Shown one piece after another: positions 7,256 through 47,232 of a stretch of 64,000 nt of DNA (its first letter is position 1; each line of letters starts with the position of its first letter). The notes under the pieces were generated by a model that searched no databases, was not told where the DNA came from, and was given only the letters and a program-made list of their open reading frames with translations. The position numbers and the translations under genes were made by a program. This DNA comes from Linyphia triangularis (Eukaryota > Arthropoda > Arachnida > Araneae > Linyphiidae), in contig OZ021732.1 in the NCBI GenBank assembly GCA_963978545.1, forward strand, positions 50,015,214 through 50,079,213, written 5' to 3'.

Positions 7256-7425
7256 TTATCACGTTTTTACTGTACGGAAACTTTTGCGTAAACTTTAACG
7301 GTTGTTATAGTGTAATTAGGCTTAGTTCATTGTGAAGATTCAGTTTGGGTTTGAAGTCTACGAAATCGTTTAACGAATTTTTTTATTTGCATTGAGTGAT
7401 TGCTATCATCAACGGGAAATAAGAA

Positions 7426-10400
7426 ATGGATTTTAAGGCCCAGATAGAGAAACTGGAGGGTTTGAGAAATTGGACGAAATGGAGACGACAGGTCGAACTT
7501 CTGCTGCAGCATCATGATGTGCTTGACATCGCCAAGGGCGAAAAGAAGCAGCCAGAGGGAGAAAACACAACTGTCGAGATGATCAGTGCGTTCAAGAAAA
7601 GAGACGCTCTGGCCCAGCTTATTCTCGTTGGAAGTATGGACGATTCGAACTGCGAACTGACGTCCACTTGCGATACTGCACATAAAATATGGGAGAAGCT
7701 ATTATCCATTTACGAACAGAGTTCGGGTCAGCGGGTTGATCGCTTGATGGAGAAGTTTTTTAGCAGCGAGAAGATCTCAACAGAAGATATGGCCACTCAT
7801 ATTGCACGGCTGCAAAGAAACTTTTGTGAGCTGAATGACGAGCTAAAGAGGTTAGTAGAAACTGAACTTCCTGAATTGCTGCTTATGAGCAGGATTATGT
7901 CTACACTTCCGCCTGAGTATTTTGAATTCAAGAGTGTATGGTAATCTATTTCCATTGAAGATCGTACTGTCAACAAACTGACTGAGAGATTACGATTAAT
8001 CGAAATGAGACTTCCTGGAAATCCAAAGGAATGCACCGCATTTGTCGCCAAGATTGCTCCGAAATCCAGTCATCCAAAAGGTGGAAAGCACAATAAAAGG
8101 TGTTTCAAATGCAATCAAAGGGGACATTTTGCTAGAATCTGCACCAAAGTGATTGAAAAGCCCACAGATGCAACAAGCAAATATTTAAAACGAGGGAATG
8201 CTTTTGTCTGCACAGTGGAAGGCGTTTCAGAGGAGGAAGTTTGGCTAGCAGATTCTGGGGCCTCTGCACACATGACAAGATTTAAGAATTACTTCATAAG
8301 CTACGAGTTATTTGCTTCACCAAAACAAGTTCAGGTAGGGAACAATAGCACAATTTTAGCCTATGGGCAGGGTGTTGTTAATGTTGAAATGAAAATTAAT
8401 GGGAAAAGAATCATCTCTCTGATGTTTGGTATGTCCCTGAAGTTGGAAGAAATTTATTTTCCATTGGCCAAACTATTGACAAGGGCTACAATTTTCAAGC
8501 AGACAACATGAAGTGCATGTTCACCAAGGACAATGATGTCCGCCTTGTGGGGAAAAGAAGTCTCAAATGCCTTTATGCTTTGCAATTGAGGGTGTGTTTA
8601 CCTGAAGTAGCTGCTGAAGTATATATTGCAACGAAGGATGAAACTGCACAGCTGTGGCATGAACGACTGTGTCACCAGAATAAAAGACATGTTCAGAAAA
8701 CATTGAAGAAATTTGGCATAAATGTGGATGTCACAAATGAAATGTGTACAGGCTGCATGTTTGGGAAACAGCATCGTGCCAGCTTTGGAGTTAGACCAAA
8801 TCGACCTACAGAAGCAGGAGCATTAATTCATGCTGTCTTATGTGGTCCCATGCAAGAAACTTCAGTGGGTGGTTCTAAGTATTTCCTGTGCTTTAAAGAT
8901 GATTTCTCCAAGTTTCGACGAGTATTTTTTATTGGTAGGAAGGATGAAGTCAAAGACTGTCTAAATATCTTCCTGAATGAAACACAAACATCTGGAATCA
9001 CTATTAAAGAGTTCTTAAGTGATGGTGGAAAAGAGTTTGACAACACAGGAATTCAAAAAGTTCTGCATGACAGAGGAATCAACATTCGGGTTACTATGCC
9101 ATACTCCCCCGAGCAAAACGGTGCAATTGAAAGGGAGAACCGAACCTTGGTTGAAAGTGCTAGATCCATGTTGCATACCAAGGAGTTACCTATCAAGCTC
9201 TGGGCTGAAGCAGTTAATACTCTAGTTTACACGTTGAATAGGACTGGACCTACATCAGTTGAAGGCAAAGCACCTTCAGAATTGTGGCTTGGCAAAGATA
9301 TTGTAAACATTGATCACTTACGAATCTTTGGAACTAAGTGTTTTGTCCATGTGCCTAAGCAAAGAAGAAGGAAATGGGACAAAAAGAGTGTCGAAGGATA
9401 TTGTGTTGGCTATTGTGGTAATCGAGATGGTTATCGTGTGTGGCTGCCAAATGAAAATAAAGTTATTCTCAGTCGAGATGTTATCTTCAAGAGGGAAGAA
9501 ACACTGGAGAAAACAGTACAATTGACTGTTCGACAAGGAAATGTTGAGAGTAGTCCAGATGTTACCTCCACTTTTAGTGAAGATGTGTTAGAAAACGCAG
9601 AGGATACAGATGAAGATACTGAATCCAGCGAGCAAGTGAGTACCAAGCGTCAGGTCAAAATGCCAGTATATTTGAAAGATTATGTTCTTCTAGCTGAATG
9701 TGGTGTTCCTGATTCCTATGCTACGGCTATGGCATCTGAGGATGCAGAACATTGGCAATGCGCCATGAATGAAGAAATGGAATCTTTGGCTGAAAACAAA
9801 GTATGGCATCTAGTGGACCTGCCTCCTGGAAATAAACTGATATCAAATCGTTGGGTATTAAAAGTCAAAACAAAAGGTGAGGGTACTGTCGACAGATACA
9901 AAGCCAGACTTGTGGCGAGAGCTTACAGTCAAAAGCAAGGCATTGACTATGATGAAACGTTTAGTCCTGTTGCCAGGTTTGACACCATCAGGACTGTTTT
10001 GAGTGTTGCAGCATCTGAAAACCTGCACCTCCACCAATTCGACGTTAAAACTGCTTTCTTGTATGGTGAACTTCAAGAGGAAGTTTACATGAAACAACCT
10101 GAAGGCTACAGCGATGGATCAGGGCGGATTTGCAGACTTGAACGAAGTCTTTATGGCTTAAAACAAGCTCCGAGATGTTGTAATAAACGTTTTGTGGACT
10201 TTATTCAAAATCAAGGTATGACCTGCAGCACTGCTGACCCTTGTTTGTTCTACAGAATTAGAAGTGGTAAGAAGCTTCTTATTGCAATATATGTAGACGA
10301 TGGACTAGTAGCTGGTACTGATGATATTGAAATTATCGAATTTATTCAAAAGCTGAAAACTGAGTTCCAGATAACAGTTAGATCATTGGACTGTTTCCTC

Positions 10401-11207
10401 GGTATGCACATAGAAAAATTGAATGATGGTTCAATCTTTGTTGCTCAAAGTAGTTATACGAGGAAAATCCTTGACAGATTTGGAATGACTGATGTGAATT
10501 CGGTTGCAACTCCTAGTGAAAAATCTGAGATAAATGATACACAACTAAATGAAAAAGTACCTTATCGAGAGGCTGTGAGCAGTCTGATGTATCTTGCCAC
10601 AGCAACGCGTCCAGATATAGCATACGCTGTAAGTGTTGTGTCTGAGAATTTGGAGAATCCATTGCTTTGTCATTGGCAGGCAGTAAAGAGAATCTTCAGA
10701 TATCTCAAAGGGACAATTTCTCAGGGACTGTTGTATCGCTGTGATTACCGTCCAGGAGAATTTGAGGCCTACAGTGATGCTGGTGATGTGAAGACTCGAC
10801 ACTCATGTTCTGGTACTTTGTGTAAATATTCTGGTGCAGCTATTACATGGAATAGCCAGAAACAGAAAAGTGTGGTGCTATCAACAACAGAAGCGGAATA
10901 TGTGGCAGCCAGTGAAGCTACCAAAGAATTCATATGGCTGAAACGACTGTTGGGAGAGATTACTCAGTTCAAGCTCACACCAACTCTTCTAGTGGATAAT
11001 CCGAGTGCCATTAAGCTTGCGAAAAACCCCGAGTTTCACAAGCGATCCAAGCACATTGAAGTCAAGTTTCACTTTATTCGTGAGAAGTTTCTTGAAAATG
11101 TGCTGAATATTGAACACATTGATGGACAGCATCAGATTGCAGACATTATGACCAAGCCGCTGGCACGTTCATCTTTTGAAACTTTTAGATGTCATGTTAT
11201 AACATGA
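7426..11207 (+). pseudogene. Copia gag-pol polyprotein with one stop and one frameshift
   Basis: The ATG at 7426 opens a copia gag (MDFKAQIEKLEGLRNW). The CCHC zinc knuckle CFKCNQRGHFARIC starts near 8102 and the protease motif LADSGAS near 8242. Integrase follows, with its zinc-binding region (CHQNKRH, CTGCMFGKQ) and core (DDFSKF, SDGGKEFD, YSPEQNGAIERENRT). Reverse transcriptase has FDVKTAFLYGEL and the catalytic YVDD near 10290. RNase H has AYSDAG, TEAEYVAASEA and KHIEVKFHFIRE and ends at 11207. Two lesions break the frame: TAA at 7942-7944, where the neighbouring residues make a Glu codon likely, and a net shift in the TCTCT run just before 8421. After 8421 the frame stays open for 2.8 kb. 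RNase H also seems to lack a few residues after SDA. Only two lesions in 3.8 kb implies moderate age. Confidence 0.9.
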
Positions 11208-14284: not shown

Positions 14285-17200
14285 GTAAGTTTTTAAGAAG
14301 AGAGCAGTTGTAATGCTTATAAATTCTCTTGTTTTTTATAAAAATATATTTTTGCATTCTCTTTTTCAATCCTTTTCACTTACAACCACGGCCGTCGCTA
14401 AGAATTTCTATTGGGGGGGGGGGGGGGCGTTAGACATACATTTGCCGACTAAAATCAAGACAAGTAAAATGTAAATGTAGAAAATATCTATTTAGGTGTC
14501 AATCTATTATTAATTAAATTTTATTAATGCATATTTTTTAATTATTTGTTAATTAATGCGTAATTAATTGTTAATGAGTTTATAACTAATTGTTAATGAG
14601 TTTATAACTAATTGTTTATTTTTTTTTATTTAATTGTGAATTATTTTATTTAATGTGTAATTAATTTTAATTAGTGTTTTTTATATTTTATGGCATTTTA
14701 TTAATACTTAATTAATGTCATATTTTAAGTAAATTCCCTTTACATTTTAATTAAAGTTTCATTAAATTCATTTAATTTTTCATTTTTGTTTAATAAATAA
14801 TCCCCTCTTTCCCGAATAAAGGGGATAATTTTTCGAAGTGCTTTTATGAGGGGAGGGGAGGCATTTATCACTTGCAGATAGAATGCATTCTCACAGTCTT
14901 GAACTAATTCAGTAACATGAGTAGTACAAAGACTCCACTTCGATAAAAAAAATAATTAATTTTCAAATTGCAGTTTTGAAGAAATTAAACGTGTAAAAGT
15001 GGATGGAAATCGCACTACAACACGAAATAAAATAAATGAAAAATATTGATCAAATAGATTAGGACTCAAATTTAGCGTTGTAAAAATAGTTAATCAAACA
15101 AATTCTGGAAAAAAGCTTCTTTGTAAAATCCTGGCAGATTATTGCTATCACACAAAATTATCTACGCGAAACACTGCGATTTTTATACTAGAGACAATGT
15201 CAGGGACATAAGAAACATGCACTTACATTCTCTCCTGCCTTTCGAAAAATAAAGTAATGTGGAAGAAGTAATTCACAAGAACAAAATATATAGGTAGTAA
15301 ATTATCAATTCGTGCAAAAATTATGTACAGTTATTAACTAACATCAAATTAGGAAGTCCTATTACCATTTTCGAAAAATCTAAGATTAAACAAAGACTTT
15401 TGTAGCCTTATACCTCCCTGTTAGCAATCTGCACCTCCCTGCAAATAATCCTGTCGGCGCTCTTGGACAACATAATTGCATTTCAAAATACAATAATTAT
15501 TAAAAACATTTTGTTAATTAATTTTTAAATACTTTTTAACATATTTTCCTAACCAAAAAAAAGAGGATTTTACTTTCTCTTGAAAAGTATATTAATAGTA
15601 AAACTTAATTTTTTTTAGCAATTTAACAGAGGAATTTACTTCTTAAAAATATTTACTTCGTGTACGTATTTTTTCCAAAACTGCTGGATAGAATATAATA
15701 ATATTTTCGAGGTTTTTCAGCAACAATTTCTGTAAATATTACTTGTTTTATTAATAATAATCATTTGTTCCAGATGGAAAGTATAATGCTAGTTTTCCCT
15801 AAGCAGGACTAAAAATGAAATGTATTACTTTAGCATTAAACCAAACTATAATATTATTTGTATGTAAAAATATATATATATATATGAACCTCTATCCTAA
15901 TGAAGCAGAAATCAAATTTTGCGAAGTAAATTATTTTCAACTTGCTCACTACCCTTATGAACTTCAAATTTAGCAACAAAATATTCAGATCTATAAAAAG
16001 CAAACCATAATTTTCGGCACAAAAATCCAAACTAAGTAAGTATAGTACCTGCAGAGGGTTTTTTTGGGAGAGGGAGGTATTCAAATCGCCAATATTATTA
16101 TCTTGAGGAAGGAGAAAATGCGCATATGATCTTCTAAAAAAGAGAAACGTCACAGTCAACCTGAGATTTCTAAAAATCTAAAAAACCTCCCCCATTTCCC
16201 TTTCCCACCTTTGAAAGTTATAATCCTAATGTGAGATCTACTGATCCTGTTTGAAATATTTTTAAAGGTATTTTGACTAATCTAACTTAACTGAAACACG
16301 ATGTCTTTCCGATGTTTCGTGTATAAAGTAAAGTGGTGAAATCGAGGAAAGGGGTTCTAATAGACGGAAACCTGGTTATACGTTGGACAAAGTCAGACTG
16401 TAGCTATTTGGGTACAGGAAAAGTCAAGAAATTTAAATAATATTATTACAAATCTTTCAATACTTTTCCAATGATTATTTTGTTGCAATATGTACGACAT
16501 TGCCTTCCAGTTTACATGGCATGAATAATTTCGGTAATACATTTGTGGTGGTCTCGTGTACAAATGACAGATACAACACCTAGGGGCTAGTGGTCACTTT
16601 TGCCTAGTGGTTAGCGTGCCTGTCTTCTGATCTGGGAGTTCCGGGTTCGACTCCCCATTAGCGCACACCGCTACATTGGTGACCCGAATATTCGAACATA
16701 TCAGTAGCACCATCTACTGAACGACCTCCACACTACCACCTCAGCATCTCTGGCGACTCATTGCCACACAGCAAGCAACCTCTGGTGCTCTGTTCACTGC
16801 CACACTCAACTCGCACGCAAGCAACTCAATCGTTCACCCTTCGCAACTCACTGGGAAGGGGCTATGTGGTGGTCTCGTGAACAAATGACAGATACAACAC
16901 CTAAGCACTAGTGATCACTTTTGCCTAGTGGTTGGCGTACCTGTCCTCTGATCTAGGAGTCCTGTGTTCGACTCTCCATTACCGTACACCGTTACATTTT
17001 TTAATAAATGAAGTACTATATAACATCAATACTTATAGAGTAGAGTTCTACTTGACATTAATTGCAATAATTTGACAAAATGTAATAGAAATATTTTTTA
17101 ACAGAATTGCACACTACTTCCATTTCACTCAACTTCATGTTCATAATAAGTAAAAATAAACCTCGGTGAATAACCTTATAAAATGTATTTTTTTATTTTT

Positions 17201-20200
17201 ATGTTATCAAAAAATAAGCAAGTTTTACTCGAAATTGAAACTTCTCGCCAGGTATGTATTTGATAAAAGAGGGCTCATTTTTCGGATGTTAAAATTTAGA
17301 TGTTTTGAAATTTTCAAAAAGACTTTCAATTCATATGATGTACAATACACACTTTATGTAAATGACGTTTAATGGGCATATCATGGTTTTTGAGGCGTTA
17401 CCTCACGTACTAAAAGTATGTCACCTACTGTAACACATCAGAGTTATGTATTAATTGGAAGAATAAGTAATTATTGTCAGTTTCTTCCTGAGAATATAGT
17501 GTGTACTTATCAGGTGACTAAATTTAAAAACTTACGACTGTCGACTTGACGATATATACAATTAAATGTACTGATTTGAAATTGAAGGAAAATTATTCAT
17601 TCTGTGGAGAATTTGTGGAAATTGATACTTGTGCAACAGTACAGGGTACGGGAGATATGTTCATATTTAATTTCATTTAGAAACTGTCAGTAACGATATC
17701 AACTTTAATGTTCCTGCAAAATAAGGATATACTTACTCCAATTAAAAATTGCCAACTTTGGCTGAATTGTGATCAGGATTTTTTAATTCTATTGACGATT
17801 TTAATTATTTATATTTTTTTCTATTCAATATATTTTAAAACATCCATTACTTGGCACTTTTAAAGGAATTGATGAAATTTTGGAAATTTGCCGAGTGCCG
17901 TCTTTCTTTTCTAAAAACTTTGGCGGGGTGAGATAATGAAGATATCTATGATTTGTGTTCGCAAGATACCTATTATATTTGTGCACTTAGTCCATCAATG
18001 TAGGCGGGGGGAAAGGCACCGACTCCCTTATAATAGACTTCTATACTAAACTTCAACTTAACTAGACATCACTTAGACGATAGATCGTGACAGTGCTCAT
18101 AGGTATTTAATCCATTTTGGCGGAGTGAAGACATAATTCTCGCCAAACCTTATAGCCTTTTGTTCTCTACAGGGTTGTGGTTTGGCGAACATTATGCTTT
18201 CACGCTGCCAAAATGGATTAAATACCTTTGAGCACTGTCACGATCTACCGTCTAAGTGATGTCTAGTTAAGTTGAAGTTTAGTATAGTGTAAAAATGCCG
18301 ATAAGTGAAACTTGGGTGGGTATTTTTAATATTTTTGTTCGACATTTTTATTTTTGTTTCCTTCAATTCGATTTTATTGTGAATCAACTTTAAAAAAAAG
18401 GACTAAAAAATTTCGAAAATTTGCCGACTGTTCAACTTTCTGAAACTTGAGGGGGGGGGGGGAGAGAGAGAAGCCCCCCTCGCCCCCTGTTCGCGTCGTC
18501 TAGTTTTACTTTATTTCACATTTAGGTTTTTGTTAAACTTCTACATTGGCAAATATAGGAAATGTATGGATTAATCTTTTAAACCAAACTTATCTCATTT
18601 TACATTAAGACAGTTGAGAATAGTTAAACAGGTGAAAATTATAGAGAATTCAGTAAATACTAACTGTAAAATTAGTGCTGTTAGAAAAAAAAATTTTAGT
18701 CCCCTGGTAACTTGAATTTTAATTGCTCTTAATAAAAAAAGGTATACATTTTATTAGAATTTTTGTACTAAATCATATTTATCTAAAACTAACCTTTAAA
18801 TGTTTTATGCCTTAAATAATATGAGTTTCTTAATTTCTACACGATTTACTTTTAAGAAAGTAAAATTACTGAGGTCTTCTATGAGTCATTGGATTGATCT
18901 TGTCAAGAAATGAGAAATATCGTATAATACTTTAGGCGAAAATATTTATACAAGGTGTTCAAAATGGGACTTCTGATATTCTAAAAAACATTTGCACCCA
19001 GGACATTAAAAATATGTATGTTTATGGGATAGTCAATGAAATTCATTAAATCAATTTGAATCTTATTAACTGCCCAATAAATGTACAGTACTCTAATAAA
19101 AAATCTGAACGATGGCTACATCTTCGATTCTAATTATCATAGAATCTTGTGGTTTTCACCAAAATATTTTGTTTATGATTTCCTATATGTCTGGTGTAAA
19201 AAATTTTCCTTAGGGGATTGTTTACTTTGGTAAATTTAACTCCATCTTCAAAAATTTCAACACAAACTCCTATTTTTTATATTTTCATTCGATTTAGAAT
19301 ACTTTGTTTACCCTAAATACCAAATTATAGTTCATTATGTTTAGAAACACGTCACTATGGGGGGGAAATGTTTTGGCCGATCTTCAGAGCAAATCTCTTT
19401 AAAGCGGCGAAGAATCGAACGTTTACGGGCTTCAAGGCATAATCTATTACATGGTCTCTTAAAGTAAGATTTTTTATATTTCTGCTAAATCAGGAGAACC
19501 AAAAGTCAAAATGGAAAGAAAAAATTTCTGGAGGGGTTTTTGACCATGATAAATCTCATAAAAACAACAAAAAAAATTTAATCTTTCCATTAAAAAAAAA
19601 ATTTAAACTTGTTTTATTAGTTATTAAATCTTTTTCTAATTAGATCTTTTTCTCTACAATCACAGGGGAAATGAGTACCAAGATCATATTAAGTGTGTGT
19701 CCGAAGATCAAAGATATGGTGGAAAAGACTATCAGCCAAAAGCTAGTAGCAACAAAGGAGAAATTAAACAAGAAAAATGGATTGAAGTTAGAACCTTATT
19801 TTATTATTTACTAACTAAATAAACATGCTTTCCTACAAAATTTCACACTAAGTATATTTTGACAACTAATTACACTTAATCTATATAAAAAATGTTTCTA
19901 TTTGCTTGACATGAGTAGTATGGTAAGAAAGTATTACAAAATCATACTTATCAAAATCTTACCGATGACAGGTTTTTTAAGCTTGATGCCTCGTTGAATA
20001 TAATGCAAAAGAATTAAGACCAATCATTGTAAAGCGCAATTTCTGCTATGTAGTCAAAATACAGGAGACAATAAAATTTAAAATTTACCATACAATGTAT
20101 TGCATTTAAAAGTAAATAAATTGTTTACATTAATATGCTGACTATCTAGCCACAGATATTGGTACTGTTCAATTTCCCTCTATCTCGTGAAATTTGATAA

Positions 20201-26200: not shown

Positions 26201-29200
26201 TTATTGTTGAGGGTATTAAGAAAATATATTTATTCCTTAAAGTAATATTATTTTTATTTGTTTGAATTTGTTAACTAATCCTTGTATCGAAATAAAATTG
26301 CATAAATCTATAAATTAATTATAAATTTTTATGTCTCAGGAGTATGATGTTTGTGTATAAGGATATGTGCTCTTTCTTTACATTATACTTTAATATATAA
26401 TGTGCATTTCTGTTCATTTTCGTGTTTGGTAAATTTTCAGCCATGCTCTTTTTTAATAGTGATAGTGTATTAGATCATAGTCTTTGTAAAAGATGGTGTT
26501 CTTTTGATGCAAACATTACATAGTTTGAGTCGGATAATAGCAGTCTATTTAGCTCATGTTAAGCTGGTTTAATTTCCAAATCCACATTACTTGGGAGTTG
26601 CTAATAAACTTATTACTTTTAAATTTAGCAAGGTGGTTTTTTTTTTTTTTTTTTTTAGAGATCTGGTATTATTTTATTGTTTTCTCAGTGATTTTATCTA
26701 TTCAATAAAATTGAAAGAAATTATTTAACACTCTGCCTGAAGTAAAGAAGCTCCACCCTTCCCCAAAGTTGATGTTAACTCATGATTACTGAAATAGCTC
26801 ATTAATTGTAATATTTTACTAATTACTTTACAAAGTTAAAAAAAGCTTTTTAAACAACAGAATTTTAACATCAAAATCTCTAATCCAGCGCAAATAAGGA
26901 AAATATTTTCCATTTCATTCTACAAAATTTCTGATGAGTGCAATTCAATGTTTTCTACTTTCAAGTGCACAAATATTAATAAATAATTGTAGTTTTTACA
27001 GTTTATTAACTTTTTTCTCTTTCATTTCCATAGAAATGAGGACTCCAAGCCAGTTTGATTGGTGTGAAGCATGTGAAAAAATTTTACTTGATTTTCCTAA
27101 TGGCCTAAGTGAAAAGAAATTAAGAAAACAGGTAAAATATGTATTAAATTATAAAATTCATGTTTTCCTTAACTATGTGAAGATAAGAATCAAAAGCAAG
27201 TTTTTGTCACAACAATTGGATGTTTTGATTTTTCATTTATTTTTATTCCAAGGTGTTACATTATTCATTTAATACATGCTTGTTACACTTGCATATTAAT
27301 TCTTATCAATTTTACATTTGCCTCTTTAAGGCAAAGGAATATAGATCTTTTTCCAGCTGACTTGACAAAAATAACATAAAATATGGTTGGTTTGCCCCGG
27401 TTTACTTATTTCACAACAATTAGATTTAAAATACTTTTAATGATCAACATAACATCTTTTGTGTAAAAAAAAGTACTTTAATGGGATACTTTCTTAGTTC
27501 TCTATACCTATTTTTATATCGGGTATCATACAACTTTGCTAAACACTGTGCAGAAAAAATATGATTCGTCATTGTCCAGTTTTTACTTTGTGTATTATGT
27601 CTGTTACGTCATCATGGAGTTGCTTATAAGAATTGACTTTTGTACTATTCGGCTTGTTCTGAATTCTGTTACGAACTGAAAAAGTGCAGACGATAATCTT
27701 TTTTTAGAATGTAAAAACGGTTATTTTATATATGTTCTTGTACTAGTTCTAAACTTTTTGTAATTAAAGAATGACGTGAAAGATTTTGCTCTCGTTTCTT
27801 AAGTGTACTGGCGTTTGTTACCTTCCATAATTTGAACCTGAAAAAGGATCCAAGTGAGATCCTACATATATTTTTGTGGCGTCCGCGACTTTTGACTTTA
27901 AAACGATTTAAAGATTGACTATGGAAGGAGAAAACACGAAACGCAAAGCGTTGAGACAATCATTCACGGTGTGTGCCAATAATGTTGAAGAGGTTTTACG
28001 AAATGATGAAACTACGGTAAACCAACTATGTCTTTTGCAAAAACAATTATTGGATAAATTTTCTCGCCTGGAAGCCGTACAGGAGAACATTGCACAAGCT
28101 CTCTTGAATGATGAAGATTTGGCGACGAATTACGATGAAGATTTTGCAAAAGCGGAAACCTACAGGGACAGATTTTGTGCGGTCTCGACACAGCTGGAAT
28201 TAAAAATTAACATGAATATTGACGCATCGAAAAGTGCTAACGCGATGGAAGAAAAACGTAAATTTAAGTTACCCCGTTTGGAGTTGAAAAGATTTACAGG
28301 TGAGCCGAAGGATTTTCTAGCCTTTTGGTCGCAATTTAGCAAAATTCATAGCGATGACAATATTCCGGATGAAGATAAATTCCAGTATTTGTTACAAAGT
28401 GTAGTGCCAAAATCTAAAGCGGCGAGGCTGGTAGAAAGCTACCCGCCCACGAGAGAAAACTATTCAAAAGTTATCGTTCAACTGAAGGATAGATTCGGTC
28501 GTGATGAATTACTCGTTCAAATTTATGTACGGGACCTTCTAAGCCTGGTTATGAAAAACGCATCCGGCAAAGGAAAAGTCGACCTATCTGAACTGTATGA
28601 CTTACTTGAGAGTAAGCTACTTGCTTTGGAAAGTTTGGGGCGCACGAAAGAAAAGTTTGCCGATTTTCTGGAACCCCTGGTGGAGTCCTGCCTTCCGGAA
28701 CAGGTACTGCGTGCCTGGGAAAGGAGTCGATCCATTGATGAGGCATCCAGTGGAACAGCTGACGCAAGCGTGCGTTCTTTGGAAAGATTAATGTCCTTCC
28801 TTCGCTCGGAGGTGCAAAGTGAGGAGATGATCATACTTGCTCGCTCGGGACTTGGAGTGCCACAGAAGAATTTACCAAACCGCAGGGATGAGGAGCCATC
28901 TTTGCCCACAAATGCAGTCTTGATTAATGCAGGTAAGGAAGAGGGGCCAGCCAAATTTAAATGTATATTTTGTTCAAAACAAAATCACTTTAGTTCTGAC
29001 TGTTTTTTGGCGCAGAAAATGTCTTTAAAGGATAAGAAGAGTATTCTTATAAAAAATAAAGCTTGTTTTAAATTAAACCATTCGGCACGATTTTGTCGAA
29101 ATAAATTCATTAAATGCGGTTTTTGCGATGACAAATCCCATCAAAGTTTAATGTGTCCCAAAAAAGAGGACATTAAAGTTGAAGACATTAAAGTAGAATC

Positions 29201-32200
29201 TGATCCTAGTATCACAGTTATAGGCAATACGCTTTCTAATCAGTCAGAAGTATCCAATATATATTTACAAACAATTATGATTAAAATTAGTCATAAAAAT
29301 AAAGAGCTGGTTTTGCTCTGCCTTCTGGACAGCGGTAGTGAAAATTCCTACATTACTCAACGGGCAATCGAAAAATTGAACTTGACACCTGTAGCAAAAC
29401 AAATCATGTTACACGGTTTGTTTGGGGGGAAGCAGACGGGTCCCAAGCAACATTCCCTCTATAATGTTGAAATAAGTAGTTTAAAGGGTGACTTTTCTTG
29501 TAAAATTCCAGTTCTTTCAGAGAATAAAATTTGTGGGTGTCTACCTAAGGTTAGGAATATATTGGTACTATCAGAACTAAAAGAAAAATATATTGATGTA
29601 CCTGATATTTATTCGTCACATTATGAAATCGATTTACTAATAGGAGCCGATTCTATTGGGTTAATCTTAACGGGTATGAGCATTACACTCGAATGTGGTT
29701 TAACGGCTGTTGAAACCAAGTTAGGATATACTTTAATGGGTAAAATTAAAGAAAATTTTAGGGAACATGTTGTAATGTCAGTGCCTGCTATAAGTGAAAG
29801 ACAATTGTCAAAACCAGTGGTAAGTATGTTATCCACACAATTGTCCACTTTTAATATCAAAGAATTGTGGGATCTGGAAACAATAGGTATTCGAGATCCA
29901 GTGGAGAATTTAAAAGGAAATATGCGTTATGCAAAAGCGATTGAGCAATTTGAGAATAATTTAAATGTGCTTCCAGATGGTAGATATGAATTGTCCTTGC
30001 CATTTAAAACTGAAAGCAAATTACCAAGTAATAAAAGTTTAACATTGAAAAGACACAAACGAATGTGTCAAGGTATAATTGATAAGGACTGTCTTGAATC
30101 CTATGTTGCTGTATTTAAAGAATGGGAGAGGTTAAAAATCATTGAAAAGGTCCCAGATAATGAAATTAAAAATGATGGTTATTATATGCCCCATAGACCA
30201 GTGTATACACCTTCTAAAACTACTAAGATCCGCCCCGTATTTGATGCATCTGCCAGGGAAAGAAGTAAACCTTCTCTTAATGATTGCCTTCATAGAGGTC
30301 CAAATTTAATTGAACTGATACCGGATATCTTAGATAGATTTCGTGTGTACCCTATTGGCATATCAGGAGATATTGAGAAAGCTTTTCTGCAATTAAGTAT
30401 AACCCCCAAATATAAGGACTTTTTAAGGTTTTTCTATCCCCATGAAAGTGAAAAAATAATTTATCGTCATTGTCGCGTGGTGTTCGGTGTCTGCTCAAGC
30501 CCATTTCTATTAGCAGCCTCAATAAAGCATTTGTTAGAGCATAGTCCCCCACAATATCGAGATTTGGTTAATAAACTGCGTCATTCCTTCTACGTAGACA
30601 ATTGTGTTACCGGTGTATTCCACGCCCAGGAAATACATCCATTTATTTCCAAGTCTGAGGAAATTATGAAAATGGGGTGTTTTAACCTCAGAGCATGGGA
30701 AAGCAATGTTAAAGGGGAGGGCGTAACTAAATCTGAAGGTGATACAAATGTATTAGGAGTTGTATGGAATTTAGACAGGGATACTCTTAGGTGTTTCATC
30801 GATAAGGAACAGTTAGGAAAAACTGAACAATTGACTAAACGGTCGATGTTATCTGCCATTCAGAGAATCTTTGATCCTATTGGCATATTAACAGCAGCTA
30901 CATTGCAGCCTAAAGTTTGGTTGCAAGAAACATGGAAACTAAAATTATCATGGGATGATCCCTTACCTCCAGATTTATATAACAAATTTAATAAATGGTT
31001 CACTGATATTTCCTTGTTAGAGGGCTTAGAAATCCCCAGATATTGTGAGGCTAATTCCTCATCAGACATGCACGTTTTCGTAGATGCTTCCAAAACTGCT
31101 TTCGTGGCTTGCGTTTTCTTAAGATCAAAAACACCTTTCGGAATTAAATTACATCTAATTAGAGCAAAGGCTAGGGTTGCTCCATCCAAAACTGTATCAA
31201 TACCTAGGTTAGAACTCTTGGATTGTTGCGTAGGTGCCAGATTGGCCAAATCCATTCAGAAGGCATTGGACCTGCCTGATTTGACCACTACTTTTTGGAC
31301 GGATTCTATGGTAGCTTTATACTGGATAAAACATTATGGGGAATGGTCAATTTTTGTGGCAAATAGAGTAAGAGAAATAGGAGAAATTACTCCTTCTGAA
31401 AACTGGAGACACGTTCCAGGTCACTTGAGTCCAGCAGATGTTCTTTCTCGTGGCTGTTCACCCAGATATATGTTGGATTCAAAATGGTGTGAAGGCCCAG
31501 CATGGCTAATTGAGGATTCTAAAAATTGGCCTACAACTGAGATCAATTGTGCAGTGAAAGAGGTCGATTCTGAAAGGAGGAAAGTTAAATTGTGTCACAT
31601 TAATGTAAACAATGAGGAATGGTATTCAAATAAGTTTTCGAATTACCACTCTATTATCAGGTTGACTGCATGGATCAAGATATTTCTTGATAACTGTCGT
31701 AAAACTACTGAAAATAGAGCGACGGGAAAACTCTCGTGTACTGAAATTGAAAGAGCCGAAAAGGTTCTTATTCGCTCGGAACAATCAAAATTCTTCCCTG
31801 ATCCAAATTGTGTACCAATAATTAACGTATTTAAGGATGATGAGGGATTGCTGCGTGTTAAGACTAGAATAACTGAGCGTAAAGATGACCATTGTTTTTT
31901 GTCACCTATCCTCCTTCCAGAAAACTGTACCTTGACTGTGAGGTTGATCCAATACTTACACCATACAAATTGTCATGCTGGTACTCAAATACTTCTCTCA
32001 ATTATCAGAGAGAAATATTGGATTCTAAAAGCTAGAAAAACTGTCCGAAATATCGTTAGGAAGTGTGTGAGGTGTCGAAGGTACAGTGCAAAACCAGCTG
32101 TTACTGAACCAGTAGCTCTGCCTCCTGACCGAGTTAGGGATACTAATGTTTTTGAGGTGTTAGGTGTTGATCTGGCCGGCCCTCTCTTCCTCCAGAATGG

Positions 32201-35200
32201 TGAAAAAGTCTGGATTGTTCTCTGTACCTGTGCAGTCTTCAGAGCAGTGCACTTGGAGCTCATAACTTCGTTGTCAACAGAGAACTTTCTGCTTTCATTT
32301 CGACGCTTTATCGCACGCAGAGGAAGACCTAAGATAGTGTATTCAGACAATGGTACTAACTTTAGGGGTGCTGTAGCTGAATTCAAAAATCTTGATTGGG
32401 AGAGTATAGAGCGGGAGACAGAAATTCAACAAATAAAGTGGGAGTTCATCCCACCCACCGCTGCATGGTGGGGGGGATGGTGGAAGAGACTTATAAGAGT
32501 GGTTAAAGATCTCTTAAAGTGTACTTTAGGAAACGCGATTTTGTCGTATGAAGAGCTTCTAACTGTTTTATGTGACTGTGAGTCTATCATAAACTCTCGC
32601 CCATTAACTTACATTTCAGAGGATTCCGAGAATCTTGTGGCAATTACGCCAGCAATGTTTTTGATGAGTAATTCTTCTCTTGATGTCACTGACTTAGATT
32701 TAAGTGATTTTGCCAAGTTTCAAAAACGAGTGAAGTTTCGGTCTAAACTTCTTAAGGATTTAAGGAGCAGGTTCCGAAAAGAGTATTTAGGTTTGTTAGT
32801 AGAAAAAAGTCAAAAACCATCATCTCGTTTCTTGACTGTTGGAGAAGTTGTGCTCATTGAGAATCCTAACAAGAAGCGTTTATATTGGCCTCTAGCCAAG
32901 GTATTGGAATTGATCCCAGGTAGAGATGGGAAAATTCGTTCTTTACGACTCAAATGTGGTAACTCAATAATAATTCGTCCTATCCAACGAGTATTTCCCT
33001 TAGAGGTACAGTCTGAAGATATTCCTGTGGCGGTCACTACCCCTTCTGATGTACCAGACGTTACTGATGATCCAGTTCAAGATCCTGTGAATGCCGAGTC
33101 AATTCCTGATGCTTCGGCTGACGATATCCACGGAATTTCAAGATATGGGAGAAAGGTGAAACCCCCGAAGAGACTGGACTTGCTCAATGTGACTTTGTTT
33201 TTTGAGTAAATAAATACTCAAAAAAGGTGGGAGTATGTTACGTCATCATGGAGTTGCTTATAAGAATTGACTTTTGTACTATTCGGCTTGTTCTGAATTC
33301 TGTTACGAACTGAAAAAGTGCAGACGATAATCTTTTTTTAGAATGTAAAAACGGTTATTTTATATATGTTCTTGTACTAGTTCTAAACTTTTTGTAATTA
33401 AAGAATGACGTGAAAGATTTTGCTCTCGTTTCTTAAGTGTACTGGCGTTTGTTACCTTCCATAATTTGAACCTGAAAAAGGATCCAAGTGAGATCCTACA
33501 ATGTCCTTATTTGCAACTAATTATTGCTGCAATTACATGTATTTTTTGTTTCATATTAGCTCAATAAACAATGTTGCATTAAATTGTAGCTACATTTCTA
33601 ATTATTGAAATTTGTGGTAATGGTTTTTTGCTGTTCTTTGAATGTAGCTTTACAAATATCAGGGGTGGGAATTCTGCGCCAATTGCGCCAGCGCGCGCCA
33701 AAAGTTGTATCCTGCGCCAACCTGCTACAAAACCACATTTAAGTGCAATTCTGCGCCAATTTTGCTTTAAATCTTCCTTTAAACGTGAACTCTAAAGCGG
33801 CAAACCAGCTTGCGCACGCCAAATCTATGTGGAGACGAAATTACGGCAACCTCAAGGGCCGTTTTGCACGAATTTCCATAACATTCGATTTTTCCTCCAA
33901 CATGCAATGTGTGGATTAGCCCTCTGAAATCGGCATTCACGCATGCGCTTTCATGTTCAAACACGTCTTGCACGGGACAAACTGAAATCGCCGCGATTGC
34001 TGATATCACGTGCGTCATTGCTAGATAAAATTTAGGGCTAAGCATTTAAAAAGAATATTTCCGCTCGGATACACGTGATGACGATGCCTTCTATTAAATT
34101 TAAGGTTGGTTTTTTTTGTAATATACTTGTTGGCTGTTGGTAATTAACTTTTAAACGTCCGTTTACATTTGAAATTAAGTAATCACAGATATGTAATCAA
34201 AATCCCGGAATGTTTCCGATTTAAAAAAAAAAAAAAAAGTTTATAGAACGGCATGAAGGGTAAAATCGGCGTTTTGGCGTAGAATTTGACCCGATTTGAA
34301 AAAAAAAATTGAGATTTAGAAACATTCTTATTTTAATTTTATGTATTGCTATTTTTGCTATAAGAATTGCTATTTTTATACAAATGAGTCTTATAATAAT
34401 AATAATAATAAAACAAAGAGTCAGTGGATCTGTAGAAAGCTACTTAAAATAGGTGTAGAACTTGACATATAATTTTTTACATAAGTAGTTTTGGCCATCT
34501 GATAGTACCTTTGATAAACAGAATGTTAAAATTTTAATTAGTTCATTTTTAATTAATTTTTTTACCAACCGACTTCAAATAGAGGTACAGCTCTGAAATT
34601 TTCTACATAAGTAGGTTTGGTTTTTTTTTAATTAGACTTTTTAAAAACAGAATGTTAAAATTTAATTAATTTTTTTAACTAATTTTTTAATTAAAAAATA
34701 GTCTTTTAATTAGGCTACAGCTCAGAAATTTTCAACATAAGTAGTTTTTACCTTCAAATTGTACATTTGACAAACAGAATGTCAAAATTTTATTTTTTAT
34801 TTATTTTTTTATTTAATTTTTTTTGTTATGTAAATTTTTTTTTTTAACGACTTTAAATATAGGTACACCTCTGAAATTTTCAACCTAAGTAGGTTTGGAC
34901 TTCTAGTTAGACTTTTGAAACACAGAATTTTAAAACTTTAATTTGTTTTTTAATTAATATTTTTACAAAGCAACTTCTACTAGATTTAGAGCTCTGAAAT
35001 TTTCAATATAAGTAGTTTTGGCCTTCTAATTTTGCTTTTCATAAACATTTGTTAAAATAATTCAGAGAGGTGAGGGAGGGTTGTGTTATTGTATGAACGG
35101 GCACATTTTTTGGTTCTCGATGGGGAGGGGGTTCTGATATTTAAGGGTTTACGTTGCAATTAATACTTAGCGAGTCAAGCGAACTTGTGCTTGCACTGCA

Positions 35201-43654: not shown

Positions 43655-44123
43655 TGTTGCACAAATTGTCTGTATATATTGTAAATAGTGACGTATTATT
43701 TCAAAATTCTATTGTAATTTATTTTTATCCTATTTTATTTAGTAATTAATATCGATTATACAAGTTAGAAAAAGGTGGCAACACCTAAAGCAATCGAGAA
43801 GTTTCGAGATATTTCTTTTCTATGAATTGGCTGGAAATTTCGAGAATGTCTCACGCGCTTGTATATAAAAGACTGGAGAACGGAAAAGTTTTCAGATTGA
43901 CTTTGGACTTCGATGAAAGCTTATCGCTTTGTTTACCTATTGGAGTGAGCTTGTATAATCGCTGTATTCGAAGTTGTTTTTTTTTGCTAAAGCTTGTGTT
44001 GAAGCTTGTGAGCGATTACACTGTTGCCTGTGGATAAATTTTGTGAGTTTTCTGGAGAGAGAATAAATATTTTTATACTGTAAAAACTGTGCCATCATTG
44101 CCTCAGCGGAAAAATTCATAACA
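43655..44123 (+). repeat. Gypsy 5' LTR
   Basis: Starts TGTTGCACAAATTG. The TATA box TATATAAAAGACTGG is near 43862 and GAATAAATA near 44061 is a likely poly(A) signal. Ends CATAACA. Confidence 0.88.
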
Positions 44124-44124
44124 G

Positions 44125-44140
44125 TGGTGTCAGAAGTGGG
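44125..44140 (+). other. Gypsy primer-binding site (tRNA-Leu)
   Basis: TGGTGTCAGAAGTGGG is the complement of the 3' end of animal tRNA-Leu(CAG), as recalled from known tRNA sequences. It lies one base after the LTR. Confidence 0.8.
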
Positions 44141-44156
44141 GTCTCGGTAATTTTGA

Positions 44157-46703
44157 ATGCCGACAACTAGAGGAATGATGGAAGACCAAATGAAGCAGTT
44201 GATGGAAATGATTGCTGGAATAAAGGCCGGACAAGAATCAACCGCTGCTACAATCGCCGCTGGTCAAGCCCGTCAAAAAGCGACATCATCAGATATTAAA
44301 GCTTTGCAAAACGCAACGTCATCGGACATTAAAGCTTTAGCCGCCAAGTGTGAAACAACATCTGCAGCAGTGAATGAAATCAAAGAAGAAATGAAGATAG
44401 AGCTAGCCTCAATGGTGGAATCCACCATAATAGAAACTACTACAAGTGTTCTACAATCAGTAAAAGAAGAGGTTCTGAGTGAAGTAAGAAAAGAAATCAG
44501 TGAGAGTTTTGAGGCTGTTAATGGGAAAGTTGACTGCTTGGGAGAAAAGGTTTCTACAGTGAAAGAAGATCTTGTGACTGTGAGGAATGAAATCGAAGAA
44601 AAGGTTTCCACCATGAAAGAGGAACAGGAAAAGTTTCATGACGCTGTTGAAGAAAGGCTACGGAAAATTGAAACGGGGGAAGCGACCGTTGCAACGCCTA
44701 AATGGGATAATGTTTCCACTCCCTTCATTGCGCCACGTTCCAACATCAAAGTAGCCACTTTTGATGGGAGGTCGTCTTGGCGCGTTTATCAAACGCAGTT
44801 TGAAATTATTGCTTCTGCGAATGGTTGGGACGATACTTCGAAGGCATTCCATCTCGCAGCATCTCTTCGAGGTGAAGCTGCTGACATTTTGCAGACACTA
44901 CCTGAAGAGAAGCGGGGAGAATTCGTGGCGCTGGCAAGTGCGTTGGAGTTAAGGTTTGGGGAGCAGCATCTAAAGGATTACAACAGACTGCAATTGAAAG
45001 TGAGACAGCAGAAGGCCAATGAAACTCTTCAAGAGTTGGCGTCAGATATAGAAAGACTGTCGCTCCTCGCTTTCCCAGACTGTCCCCCGGATGTACGAGA
45101 TGATCTTTCGCTGCAGTATTTCATCGACGCTATTCAAGATCCCGATGTGCAGCAGGCGGTAAGGTTATCCCAAAACAAAAACCTGAAGTCTGCCCTCGTG
45201 TACGCCATGAGAGTGGAAGCCGCGCAGCTAGCTTCTGGAAAAGACCGACGATATGTGTGCGGTGCATTAGCCGAGGATTCTTCTGACTTTGTCACCAGTA
45301 AGCTTCGAGAACTGGAGAGCAAAATTGATCGAATGATGAGAAGCTATCCCGGAGCCAGGGATCGAAGGACCAGAGTCATTTGCTGGCACTGCAAACGGGA
45401 AGGGCATCTACGACGTAACTGCCTTGATTTGAAAAAGAGAAGGGATAACACTACCACGGAATCTCAACAACTGAATCTAAGAAGATGCCATCTCTCAGGG
45501 CAGAAGCTTCAATGCAGAACTGGTGAAGCCACGACCAGTCGTTTCCACGTTTCATCCCGACAAGGAGGAAACCAGGGTTTATTCGTGAAGGGGGAGATCA
45601 ACGGAACTCCATGTCGTCTAATCGTCGATTCGGGAGCGAACGTTACGATCGTAAGGACGGACGTGGCTCGTCGCCTGAACAGCCGACTCCTCTACACAGC
45701 GCCTTCTGTTTCTCTACAAACTGTGTCTGGTGGTAATATCTCTGTGCATGGGAAATTGCAAGTGAACATTGCCCTTGAATTTAACACCTACAAGCACACC
45801 GTTTATGTTGCCGAAATTGTAGATCCATGCATTCTCGGACTAGACTTTTTGAAGAAAAATGGAATTACGCTGAATTTTGAGGAAAGCAAGCTGCAAACAT
45901 GGAGAGGCGAAGTTCCTTTGCACGATCTAGACATGAAAGAGCTGTGCGTATATCGGATTATGGCTCATGACGACAATGTCATAGAGAATGCTGAAGAGTC
46001 CACATCTATGAAAAGTACCTCACCAGCCTCGGAAAGAGAACCGAAGAAAGTGACATTGATGAAACCCTCCCAGGAAGTGGTTCATGTGGAAATGGACAAA
46101 GTTAGTGAAGAGGGAATCGACATCCGTACTCCTGTTACAAGCATCGAACGGAGGTCCCGGGATCTATCAGCTGCACCCGCGGATTATTCGGACGCAATCT
46201 CAAAATCATATAATCAGCAAGATGGGGATCAGAAACTTTCACCGCTTCTGTTGGCATACGGGGGTGCAACTCACGAGACCACCAGATTTTCTCCATCTCT
46301 AACGATGTTTGGAAGAGACCTTAGGCTCCCCAGCAACCTCCTCTTTGGACAACCACCGGACACTCCTTCCTCGCCTGTCCAGTATCTAGATGATCTGCAG
46401 GCACGTTTGGAAGCCGTTCATCAGTTCGCCAGAGAGAGAAACAACATCATGACGGAGCGCATGAAGATCCGATACTATGCCAAGGCCATGGATCGTTCAT
46501 TCCAGGAAGGTGACAAGGTGTGGTTAAGGAACCCTAAACGTCGGAAAGGACTCTCCCCTAAGCTCCAGACGAACTGGGAAGGGCCGTATGGGGTCCTTAA
46601 GAAGATCAACGACGTCGTGGTGAGAATTCAACGGACACCTTCCTGTAAACCTAGAGTTCTACATAACAATAGACTAGCCCCATATTATAGTAGAAGTGAT
46701 TGA
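44157..46703 (+). CDS. Gypsy gag-protease fused to integrase C-terminus (848 aa)
   Basis: The ATG at 44157 opens a gag with a long coiled-coil-like N-terminus (about residues 1-170). A retrotransposon gag domain follows (about 200-380: KVATFDGRSSWRVYQTQFE). The CCHC knuckle CWHCKREGHLRRNC is near 408 and the aspartic protease motif IVDSGANVTIV near 488, with ILGLDFLKKNG later. Near residue 690 the sequence changes abruptly to the post-catalytic part of integrase (SPLLLAYGGATHETTRFSP, MFGRDLRLPSNLLFG) and the C-terminal KVWLRNPKRRKG and GPYGVLKKIND region. The entire RT-RNase H-integrase core, normally about 2 kb, is missing, yet the join is in frame with no stop. A packaging or cis-acting role for the remaining Gag is inferred. 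Confidence 0.88.
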   Translation: MPTTRGMMEDQMKQLMEMIAGIKAGQESTAATIAAGQARQKATSSDIKALQNATSSDIKALAAKCETTSAAVNEIKEEMKIELASMVESTIIETTTSVLQSVKEEVLSEVRKEISESFEAVNGKVDCLGEKVSTVKEDLVTVRNEIEEKVSTMKEEQEKFHDAVEERLRKIETGEATVATPKWDNVSTPFIAPRSNIKVATFDGRSSWRVYQTQFEIIASANGWDDTSKAFHLAASLRGEAADILQTLPEEKRGEFVALASALELRFGEQHLKDYNRLQLKVRQQKANETLQELASDIERLSLLAFPDCPPDVRDDLSLQYFIDAIQDPDVQQAVRLSQNKNLKSALVYAMRVEAAQLASGKDRRYVCGALAEDSSDFVTSKLRELESKIDRMMRSYPGARDRRTRVICWHCKREGHLRRNCLDLKKRRDNTTTESQQLNLRRCHLSGQKLQCRTGEATTSRFHVSSRQGGNQGLFVKGEINGTPCRLIVDSGANVTIVRTDVARRLNSRLLYTAPSVSLQTVSGGNISVHGKLQVNIALEFNTYKHTVYVAEIVDPCILGLDFLKKNGITLNFEESKLQTWRGEVPLHDLDMKELCVYRIMAHDDNVIENAEESTSMKSTSPASEREPKKVTLMKPSQEVVHVEMDKVSEEGIDIRTPVTSIERRSRDLSAAPADYSDAISKSYNQQDGDQKLSPLLLAYGGATHETTRFSPSLTMFGRDLRLPSNLLFGQPPDTPSSPVQYLDDLQARLEAVHQFARERNNIMTERMKIRYYAKAMDRSFQEGDKVWLRNPKRRKGLSPKLQTNWEGPYGVLKKINDVVVRIQRTPSCKPRVLHNNRLAPYYSRSD

Positions 46704-46763
46704 ATTGCCTTTCCTCTTAAGGACTTCACTGCCCGGGACGTGCAGTCTTTAAGAAGGGGGAAA

Positions 46764-47232
46764 TGTTGCACAAATTGTCTGTATATATTGTAAATAGTGA
46801 CGTATTATTTCAAAATTCTATTGTAATTTATTTTTATCCTATTTTATTTAGTAATTAATAGCGATTATACAAGTTAGAAAAAGGTGGCAACACCTAAAGC
46901 AATCGAGAAGTTTCGAGATATTTCTTTTCTATGAATTGGCTGGAAATTTCGAGAATGTCTCACGCGCTTGTATATAAAAGACTGGAGAACGGAAAAGTTT
47001 TCAGATTGACTTTGGACTTCGATGAAAGCTTATCGCTTTGTTTACCTATTGGAGTGAGCTTGTATAATCGCAGTATTTGAAGTTGTTTTTTTTTTGCTAA
47101 AGCTTGTGTTGAAGCTTGTGTGCGATTACACTGTTGCCTGTGGATAAATTTTGTGAGTTTTCTGGAGAGAGAATAAATATTTTTATACTGTAAAAACTGT
47201 GCCATCATTGCCTCAGCGGAAAAATTCATAAA
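46764..47232 (+). repeat. Gypsy 3' LTR
   Basis: Nearly identical to the 5' LTR. It is preceded by the purine tract AAGAAGGGGGAAA and followed by ATTAC. Confidence 0.88.

Follow-up and report, generated by a model that had tools for sequence, protein, structure and literature searches.

A miniature LTR retrotransposon with a predicted tRNA-like promoter, probably spread by a likely hAT-type DNA transposon, in the spider Linyphia triangularis

Miniature LTR retrotransposons (TRIMs) with tRNA-like LTRs have been named Helenus (the TRIMp3 group; Kojima 2024, PMC10886601). Their hosts are fungi, a lycophyte, and six animal phyla, and the arthropod hosts in Table 1 of that paper are all Hymenoptera. 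Helenus elements are 311-1263 bp long, have 4-bp duplications in animals, include tRNA-Trp among their primers in Hymenoptera, and depend for their movement on an LTR retrotransposon, which in animals is Gypsy (PMC10886601). The same paper states that their use of Pol III is not validated and that it is unknown how TRIMs of this type keep their dependence on autonomous elements. The transcript of Cassandra, as given there (PMC10886601), starts in the 5′ LTR and ends in the 3′ LTR with an 18-bp repeat. Another animal TRIM, PbTRIM, comes from the harvester ant and has 4-bp duplications and LTRs of 152-184 bp (PMC3532108).

We analyzed a stretch of 64,000 nucleotides from the spider Linyphia triangularis (GenBank assembly GCA_963978545.1, contig OZ021732.1), here called the window. 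In our assessment the 453 bp at 16544..16996 are probably a TRIM of the Helenus kind with a predicted tRNA-like Pol III promoter in its LTRs, carried in a larger, likely hAT-type DNA transposon that spread the TRIM genome-wide. The analysis shows a 4-bp-duplicated entry into the carrier, empty carrier relatives, the copying of composites (carrier plus TRIM) with 8-bp duplications, and TRIMs elsewhere with 4-bp duplications of their own. An initial annotation of this DNA had rightly recognized a TRIM whose LTRs bear a tRNA-like promoter and had drawn the parallel between this animal element and Cassandra; it knew of no named family with such a layout, for which the name Helenus already exists.

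The TRIM copy of the window

A direct repeat pairs 16544-16677 with 16865-16998 of the window (88% identity, spacing 321), and we set the LTR limits at 16544-16675 and 16865-16996, each TG...CA (Table 1). At the best offset LTR1 and LTR2 match at 116 of 132 positions, whereas 60 dinucleotide shuffles average 55.6 matches and never exceed 60. The two 132-bp repeats of the initial annotation are real. Directly 3′ of LTR1 is TTGGTGACCCG. Also borne out are the annotated PBS-like sequence, which is an exact complement of the host tRNA-Trp end over 10 nt, the purine tract ahead of the second LTR, and the absence of an ORF (no stop-to-stop frame of at least 110 aa lies between 12073 and 21227 of the window). 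The spacing claimed for box A and box B is exactly 33 bases in LTR1 and the same in LTR2, where box B is degraded. TRIM length is 453-468 bp in the eight composites measured and 463 bp in L027, a locus outside the carrier.

Table 1. Features of the TRIM and of its carrier in the window
Feature	Position	Strand	Description
Carrier	14387..18501	.	Likely non-autonomous hAT-like DNA transposon; terminal inverted repeats CAGGGCCGTCGC / GCGTCGTCCCTG; frames of at most 107 aa in the window copy
Left target duplication of the TRIM	16540..16543	+	CATT, 4 bp
5′ LTR	16544..16675	+	132 bp, TG...CA
TTTT overlapping the start of box A	16598..16601	+	In 80 of 86 aligned LTRs; 3′-LTR equivalent 16919-16922; proposed Pol III terminator in the 3′ LTR (inferred)
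Box A-like	16600..16610	+	TTGCCTAGTGG, in the 5′ LTR; 3′-LTR equivalent 16921-16931
Box B	16644..16654	+	GGTTCGACTCC, in the 5′ LTR; degraded 3′-LTR equivalent 16965-16975
Primer-binding site (PBS)	16677..16686	+	TGGTGACCCG; 10 nt exact complement of the host tRNA-Trp 3′ end, CCA included; 11th base mismatched
Interior	16677..16864	+	Non-coding, from the PBS to the purine tract
Polypurine tract (PPT)	16853..16864	+	GGGAAGGGG (16853-16861), then CTA, abutting LTR2
3′ LTR	16865..16996	+	132 bp, 88% identity to the 5′ LTR; in the separate 3′-LTR clade (20 carried copies)
Later insertion in the carrier copy	18044..18284	.	About 240 bp; repeat also found elsewhere

The tRNA-like stretch of the TRIM is a remnant and not a tRNA gene. 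ARAGORN finds no tRNA gene in the window, and no Rfam family reaches its gathering score there; the Rfam matches below that score are weak and mostly irrelevant. The tRNA covariance model gives the LTR of L027 13.5 bits (model positions 10-63). Because this is below the gathering score of 29 bits, the two boxes and the distance between them are the main ground for the label “tRNA-like”. The box B pattern GGTTCRANTCC occurs three times in the window against 0.21 expected, and one of the other two occurrences is in an ordinary SINE. A tRNA-derived SINE of the ordinary type (about 178 bp) is found at 2791-2970 of the window, with copies 87-98% identical in seven of the fetched loci (L014, L016, L018, L025, L026, L031, and L035); between this SINE and the TRIM, the tRNA-like parts are 77% alike over 52 bp.

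The carrier and the copying of carried TRIMs

The genome search proposed in the initial annotation was run with LTR1. A first look turned up 2613 candidates, and the 40 best of these, which were scored, all have at least 95% identity; flanked (carried) and free copies were both found. The LTR1 sample consists of 20 stretches of 10 kb, mostly from the top of the match list with a few from lower down. Carrier sequence flanks the TRIM in 20 of 21 loci (the window and the 20 fetched), with a partial match in L016 and L025 and no match in L027.

The carrier is a unit of about 3.9 kb with 8-bp target duplications. The duplications have at most one mismatch in 13 of the 15 scorable composites and are exact in 10 (5 of the 20 composites are unscorable), and the terminal inverted repeats, CAGGGCCGTCGC and CAGGGACGACGC, agree at 10 of 12 positions. 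The window copy has mutated outer ends and no recognisable duplication of its own. The repeat of about 240 bp inserted in it has matches in both orientations (L010, L015, and L018). Non-autonomous hAT transposons are marked by 8-bp duplications, CAGGG...CCCTG ends, and the absence of a transposase. From its ends and its duplications, and not from a transposase with matching ends, the carrier is likely a non-autonomous transposon of the hAT type. The hAT dimerisation domain (PF05699) has 2556 candidates in the genome, of which 150 places were scored. Many of these hits score almost equally and lie within open frames that are exactly 661 aa long, which suggests that an autonomous hAT family has recently undergone a burst.

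Over 20 composites, identity is 95.6% among 5′ LTRs and 93.0% among 3′ LTRs, and between 5′ and 3′ LTRs it is 86.9% within a copy and 86.6% between copies. The 5′ and 3′ LTRs of the 20 carried copies form separate clades (support 100/100). Because LTR replication renews both LTRs from one template, the carried copies were made as a block and not by LTR replication.

A query made of the joined flanks has 41 matches, 25 of which cross the junction. All eight empty sites that were fetched are uninterrupted relatives of the carrier, seven with GCATTTT and one with GAATTTT. The uninterrupted-site pattern occurs at 460 sites, which include at least one inside an occupied copy (L048) as well as other carrier subfamilies and so are not a count of empty sites. 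Occupied copies of the window's lineage have CATT before the TRIM and CTTT, the right copy of the target duplication, after it in seven of eight, and the window (16997-17000) is without the C. In the PBS-pattern sample (28 loci in two draws, 8 + 20), an exact CATT/CATT pair is present in 10 of 15 carried two-LTR copies, and all 10 are among the 12 copies of older subfamilies. The junction of carrier and LTR1 is found at 379 genome sites with at most two mismatches (control 0). On the simplest reading, the TRIM entered the carrier once, with a 4-bp duplication of CATT, and then multiplied with it. Judged by its flanks, the window TRIM is a passenger of the carrier and not an independent LTR insertion. 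The TRIM structure of the initial annotation stands. What it missed is that the 4 kb around the copy are a repeat too, the DNA transposon that was amplified as a block with the TRIM inside.

Copies elsewhere, priming, and a likely daughter of a carried TRIM

The LTR end followed by the PBS occurs at 411 genome sites (at most one mismatch; control 1) and the PPT/LTR junction at 1085 (at most two mismatches; control 0). Set against the 379 carrier junctions, the 1085 PPT junctions indicate many TRIM copies outside a recognisable carrier junction. The 28 PBS-sampled loci have flanks of the carrier in 18, of a second carrier repeat in 6 (L029, L033, L055, L056, L030, and L054, which have flanks in common and an A-rich stretch downstream), and other flanks in 4. 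No coding frame that identifies the second carrier was found in the L029/L030 group. L027 has LTRs that are 98.5% alike, an ATCT/ATCT duplication, and flanks that differ from the carrier. Another locus, L053, has an AGGC/AGGC target duplication, and a CTAA/CTAA pair is present in L030 and L054, which are two copies of one second-carrier insertion. Two more candidate free copies have their PBS at C3:77477677 and C4:44026714, each followed by an LTR match 190 bp downstream. By the evidence of these duplications, the TRIM also moves as an LTR element in its own right.

The usual end of tRNA-Trp is CGGGGTCA. The end of the host tRNA-Trp, CCGGGTCA, departs from it in the same direction as the PBS. 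An exact tRNA-Trp gene pattern occurs 177 times in the genome, and about 93 of the 100 occurrences listed are on one strand in a dense tandem cluster at C5:72.071-72.142 Mb, which may extend further. A longer complement of tRNA-Trp is present at 140 genome sites (control 0), which suggests that LTR elements primed by this tRNA live in the host genome. In a by-eye comparison, none of the 100 sites listed among these 140 is within 10 kb of the 150 scored hits among 5478 Gypsy reverse transcriptase candidates (PF17919). No autonomous element with the LTR or interior of the TRIM was found, and all 11 sites with a changed LTR end look TRIM-like by their matched letters. The window's own Gypsy was rejected as a partner, as it carries a different PBS.

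The window contains several other LTR elements. The one at 43655-47231 has LTRs that are 100% identical over 300 nt and 99% over 145 nt, and a single 848-aa frame with gag-protease and integrase C-terminal domains and no reverse transcriptase domain; it is likely a recent non-autonomous derivative of Gypsy. A Copia element at 7423-11207 has a gag frame and a 935-aa pol frame, and a BEL/Pao element at 27912-33209 has a 1765-aa frame. Among named sequences, those closest to the BEL polyprotein come from the spiders Argiope (57% identity, 41% of the query covered), Stegodyphus (55%, 84% covered), and Trichonephila (50%, 71% covered); the best match overall is 61%, and relatives from a pseudoscorpion and insects are mostly lower. 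As transposons can pass between species, these relatives are no more than a pointer to a spider host. An exact 32-base LTR pattern had no match in IMG/VR, and a blastn search of phage records for relatives also had none.

Eleven LTR columns at which young carried 5′ and 3′ LTRs differ were used as a diagnostic set. The young group has 23 copies (the window, 19 loci of the LTR1 sample, and L034, L040, and L051, by their 5′-LTR states), with young and older copies assigned by us. Both LTRs of L027 share the state of the 3′ LTRs at columns 42-43 and that of the 5′ LTRs at each of the nine diagnostic columns between 50 and 128. CA at columns 42-43 is found in none of the 23 young carried 5′ LTRs and in 21 of the 23 young carried 3′ LTRs, in a set of which 20 copies are the window or were recovered with the window LTR1 (GG at these columns), so that CA-bearing 5′ LTRs are under-sampled. 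The interior of L027 has two marks, CTCTGTTCA and TGAACGA, which are present in 14 and 17 of the 23 young carried copies, respectively, and absent from all 15 older carried copies and all 10 other copies (the 10 include two near-duplicate sets). In a tree of U5 and interior, L027 groups with the young carried copies L024 and L016 (92/77), and the young set is on one side of a branch with support 76/92. L027 is thus likely a retrotransposed daughter of a carried TRIM, a reading made from one locus with moderate tree support. Its mosaic is the chimera expected from LTR reverse transcription, with U3 from the 3′ LTR and R and U5 from the 5′ LTR, and the switch of state between columns 43 and 50 would put the beginning of the RNA 7-13 nt ahead of box A. 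An asymmetry of LTR changes relative to L027 (the 3′ LTR differs at 9 of 11 columns and the 5′ LTR at 2 of 11) was set aside once the older carried copies had been read.

L027 could alternatively be a survivor of a free TRIM lineage, in which the marks predate the insertion into the carrier or came by gene conversion. Its columns 42-43 match the state of free and older copies, and the tree support is moderate, as this alternative allows; however, its states at columns 91 and 97, like the two marks of its interior, are typical of young carried TRIMs. These marks seem to postdate the insertion, because the interior marks are seen in 0 of 15 older carried copies (and 0 of 10 other copies) and the older carried 5′ LTRs keep the other state at column 91 in 15 of 15. 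We judge a free survivor to be unlikely. A different possibility concerns the RNA start only. L027 may descend from a carried intermediate with CA at columns 42-43 and young states further on, in which case it is still a daughter and the start is not placed. CA is present at 42-43 in all 15 of the older carried 5′ LTRs, and the LTR1-based sample is biased against young 5′ LTRs that bear it; the three young 5′ LTRs in the PBS-pattern sample have GG, GA, and GA.

Predicted transcription and comparison with known systems

We predict that the tRNA-like sequence of the LTR is a Pol III promoter. In the cycle that we propose, the RNA would begin in the 5′ LTR, 7-13 nt ahead of box A (LTR 44-50) and just before the TTTT at columns 55-58. 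Pol III would then continue across the interior and terminate in the 3′ LTR, at the TTTT on the edge of its box A. The resulting R would be very short (about 9-15 nt), with both boxes inside U5. Reverse transcription would be primed by tRNA-Trp and supplied in trans by some LTR retrotransposon, and the position of the boxes in U5 would restore the promoter in both new LTRs. At one locus, L027, a carried copy has likely been transcribed and then retrotransposed out of the carrier.

Conservation across LTR copies is 0.965 in the first 35 bases, 0.959 in box A, 0.864 in box B, and 0.893 between the boxes. Special conservation of the boxes is therefore not seen, as neither exceeds the first 35 LTR bases, though box A is above the stretch between the boxes. 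Depletion of T-runs is also not significant as a sign of Pol III, as 83% of dinucleotide shuffles likewise contain no TTTT from the proposed start to the proposed stop. L027 has TTTT between its own boxes, and L053 has one altered box in each LTR.

SINEs enter two alternative explanations of the promoter-like stretch. Heads with box A and box B are typical of SINEs, and a box B is found in the repeat, as it would be if the two repeats were unrelated SINE copies that landed next to each other and resembled LTRs by accident. This we regard as extremely improbable, and a chance repeat or SINE pair was rejected on the shuffles and on the other loci, which keep the order LTR-PBS-interior-PPT-LTR with 4-bp duplications; the 411 PBS-junction and 1085 PPT-junction sites in the genome also speak against it. 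The LTR reading stands where the initial annotation would have given it up, had the repeats occurred as independent SINEs without the PBS/PPT interior. A more serious contender, and still a somewhat unlikely one, is that the tRNA-like stretch is left over from a SINE that inserted in the LTR, with Pol II transcribing the TRIM from U3. The lack of special conservation of the boxes fits this, as do the 77% likeness over 52 bp to a common tRNA SINE of the host genome and the proposal by Kojima (PMC10886601) that such TRIMs originate by SINE insertion. Against a leftover, the free copy L027 retains an intact box A and box B at an unchanged spacing in each of its LTRs, and a mosaic start just upstream of box A leaves a U3 of only 43-49 bp.

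Returning to the Pol III model, we tentatively put forward a retroelement with two engines, as a possibility that we hold at somewhat less than even weight. A cut-and-paste DNA transposon would take a Pol III-driven TRIM to hundreds of loci, with a promoter in every carried copy, and some copies would still exit by reverse transcription that rebuilds both LTRs from a short RNA begun just upstream of box A, so that the mosaics of escapees map the RNA start. The diverged carried copies are marked templates, in which the 11 differing LTR columns record which LTR gave which part of a daughter. With more daughters, both the RNA start site and the Pol III model become testable from sequence. The sampled loci (18 of 28 carried) and the junctions (379 of the carrier against 1085 of the PPT) also indicate that a sizeable share of the copy number of a retroelement can come from the movement of another transposon. 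A TRIM carried by a DNA transposon is apparently new, as far as we are aware, as is the mosaic daughter, and the tRNA-bearing kind of TRIM is already known as Helenus. A literature search for a TRIM amplified inside a DNA transposon found no description, and one may exist elsewhere.

The closest described system is Helenus. It shares with the window TRIM the lack of genes, the size range, box A and box B in the LTRs, a PBS, a PPT, 4-bp duplications, and the use of tRNA-Trp as primer (in Hymenoptera). The window TRIM is short and ORF-less, and its box B has GGTTC and YGG at a spacing of 33; box A is off at one base, TTGCC against TRGCY in Helenus (T for R). Compared in its features with the published description, it appears to be a new member of the Helenus kind. 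The arthropod hosts of Helenus are Hymenoptera only (Table 1 of PMC10886601), whereas the host here is a spider, which probably extends tRNA-bearing TRIMs to a chelicerate. The terms “DNA transposon” and “nested” have no occurrence in the main text on Helenus (PMC10886601), whereas carried copies are the larger part of the loci sampled here.

PbTRIM differs in having a tRNA-Leu PBS where the window TRIM has tRNA-Trp, and the passages compared describe no tRNA-like promoter, while “box A” is absent from the text (PMC3532108). Cassandra also has a Pol III promoter inside the LTR, and its 18-bp repeat is close to the short R of 9-15 nt or so inferred here; its promoter is that of 5S and its hosts are plants, in contrast to the tRNA-like sequence of an animal TRIM. 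Non-autonomous hAT transposons have the 8-bp duplications, the CAGGG...CCCTG ends, and the missing transposase in common with the carrier, which differs from them in holding an LTR retroelement that was amplified along with it.
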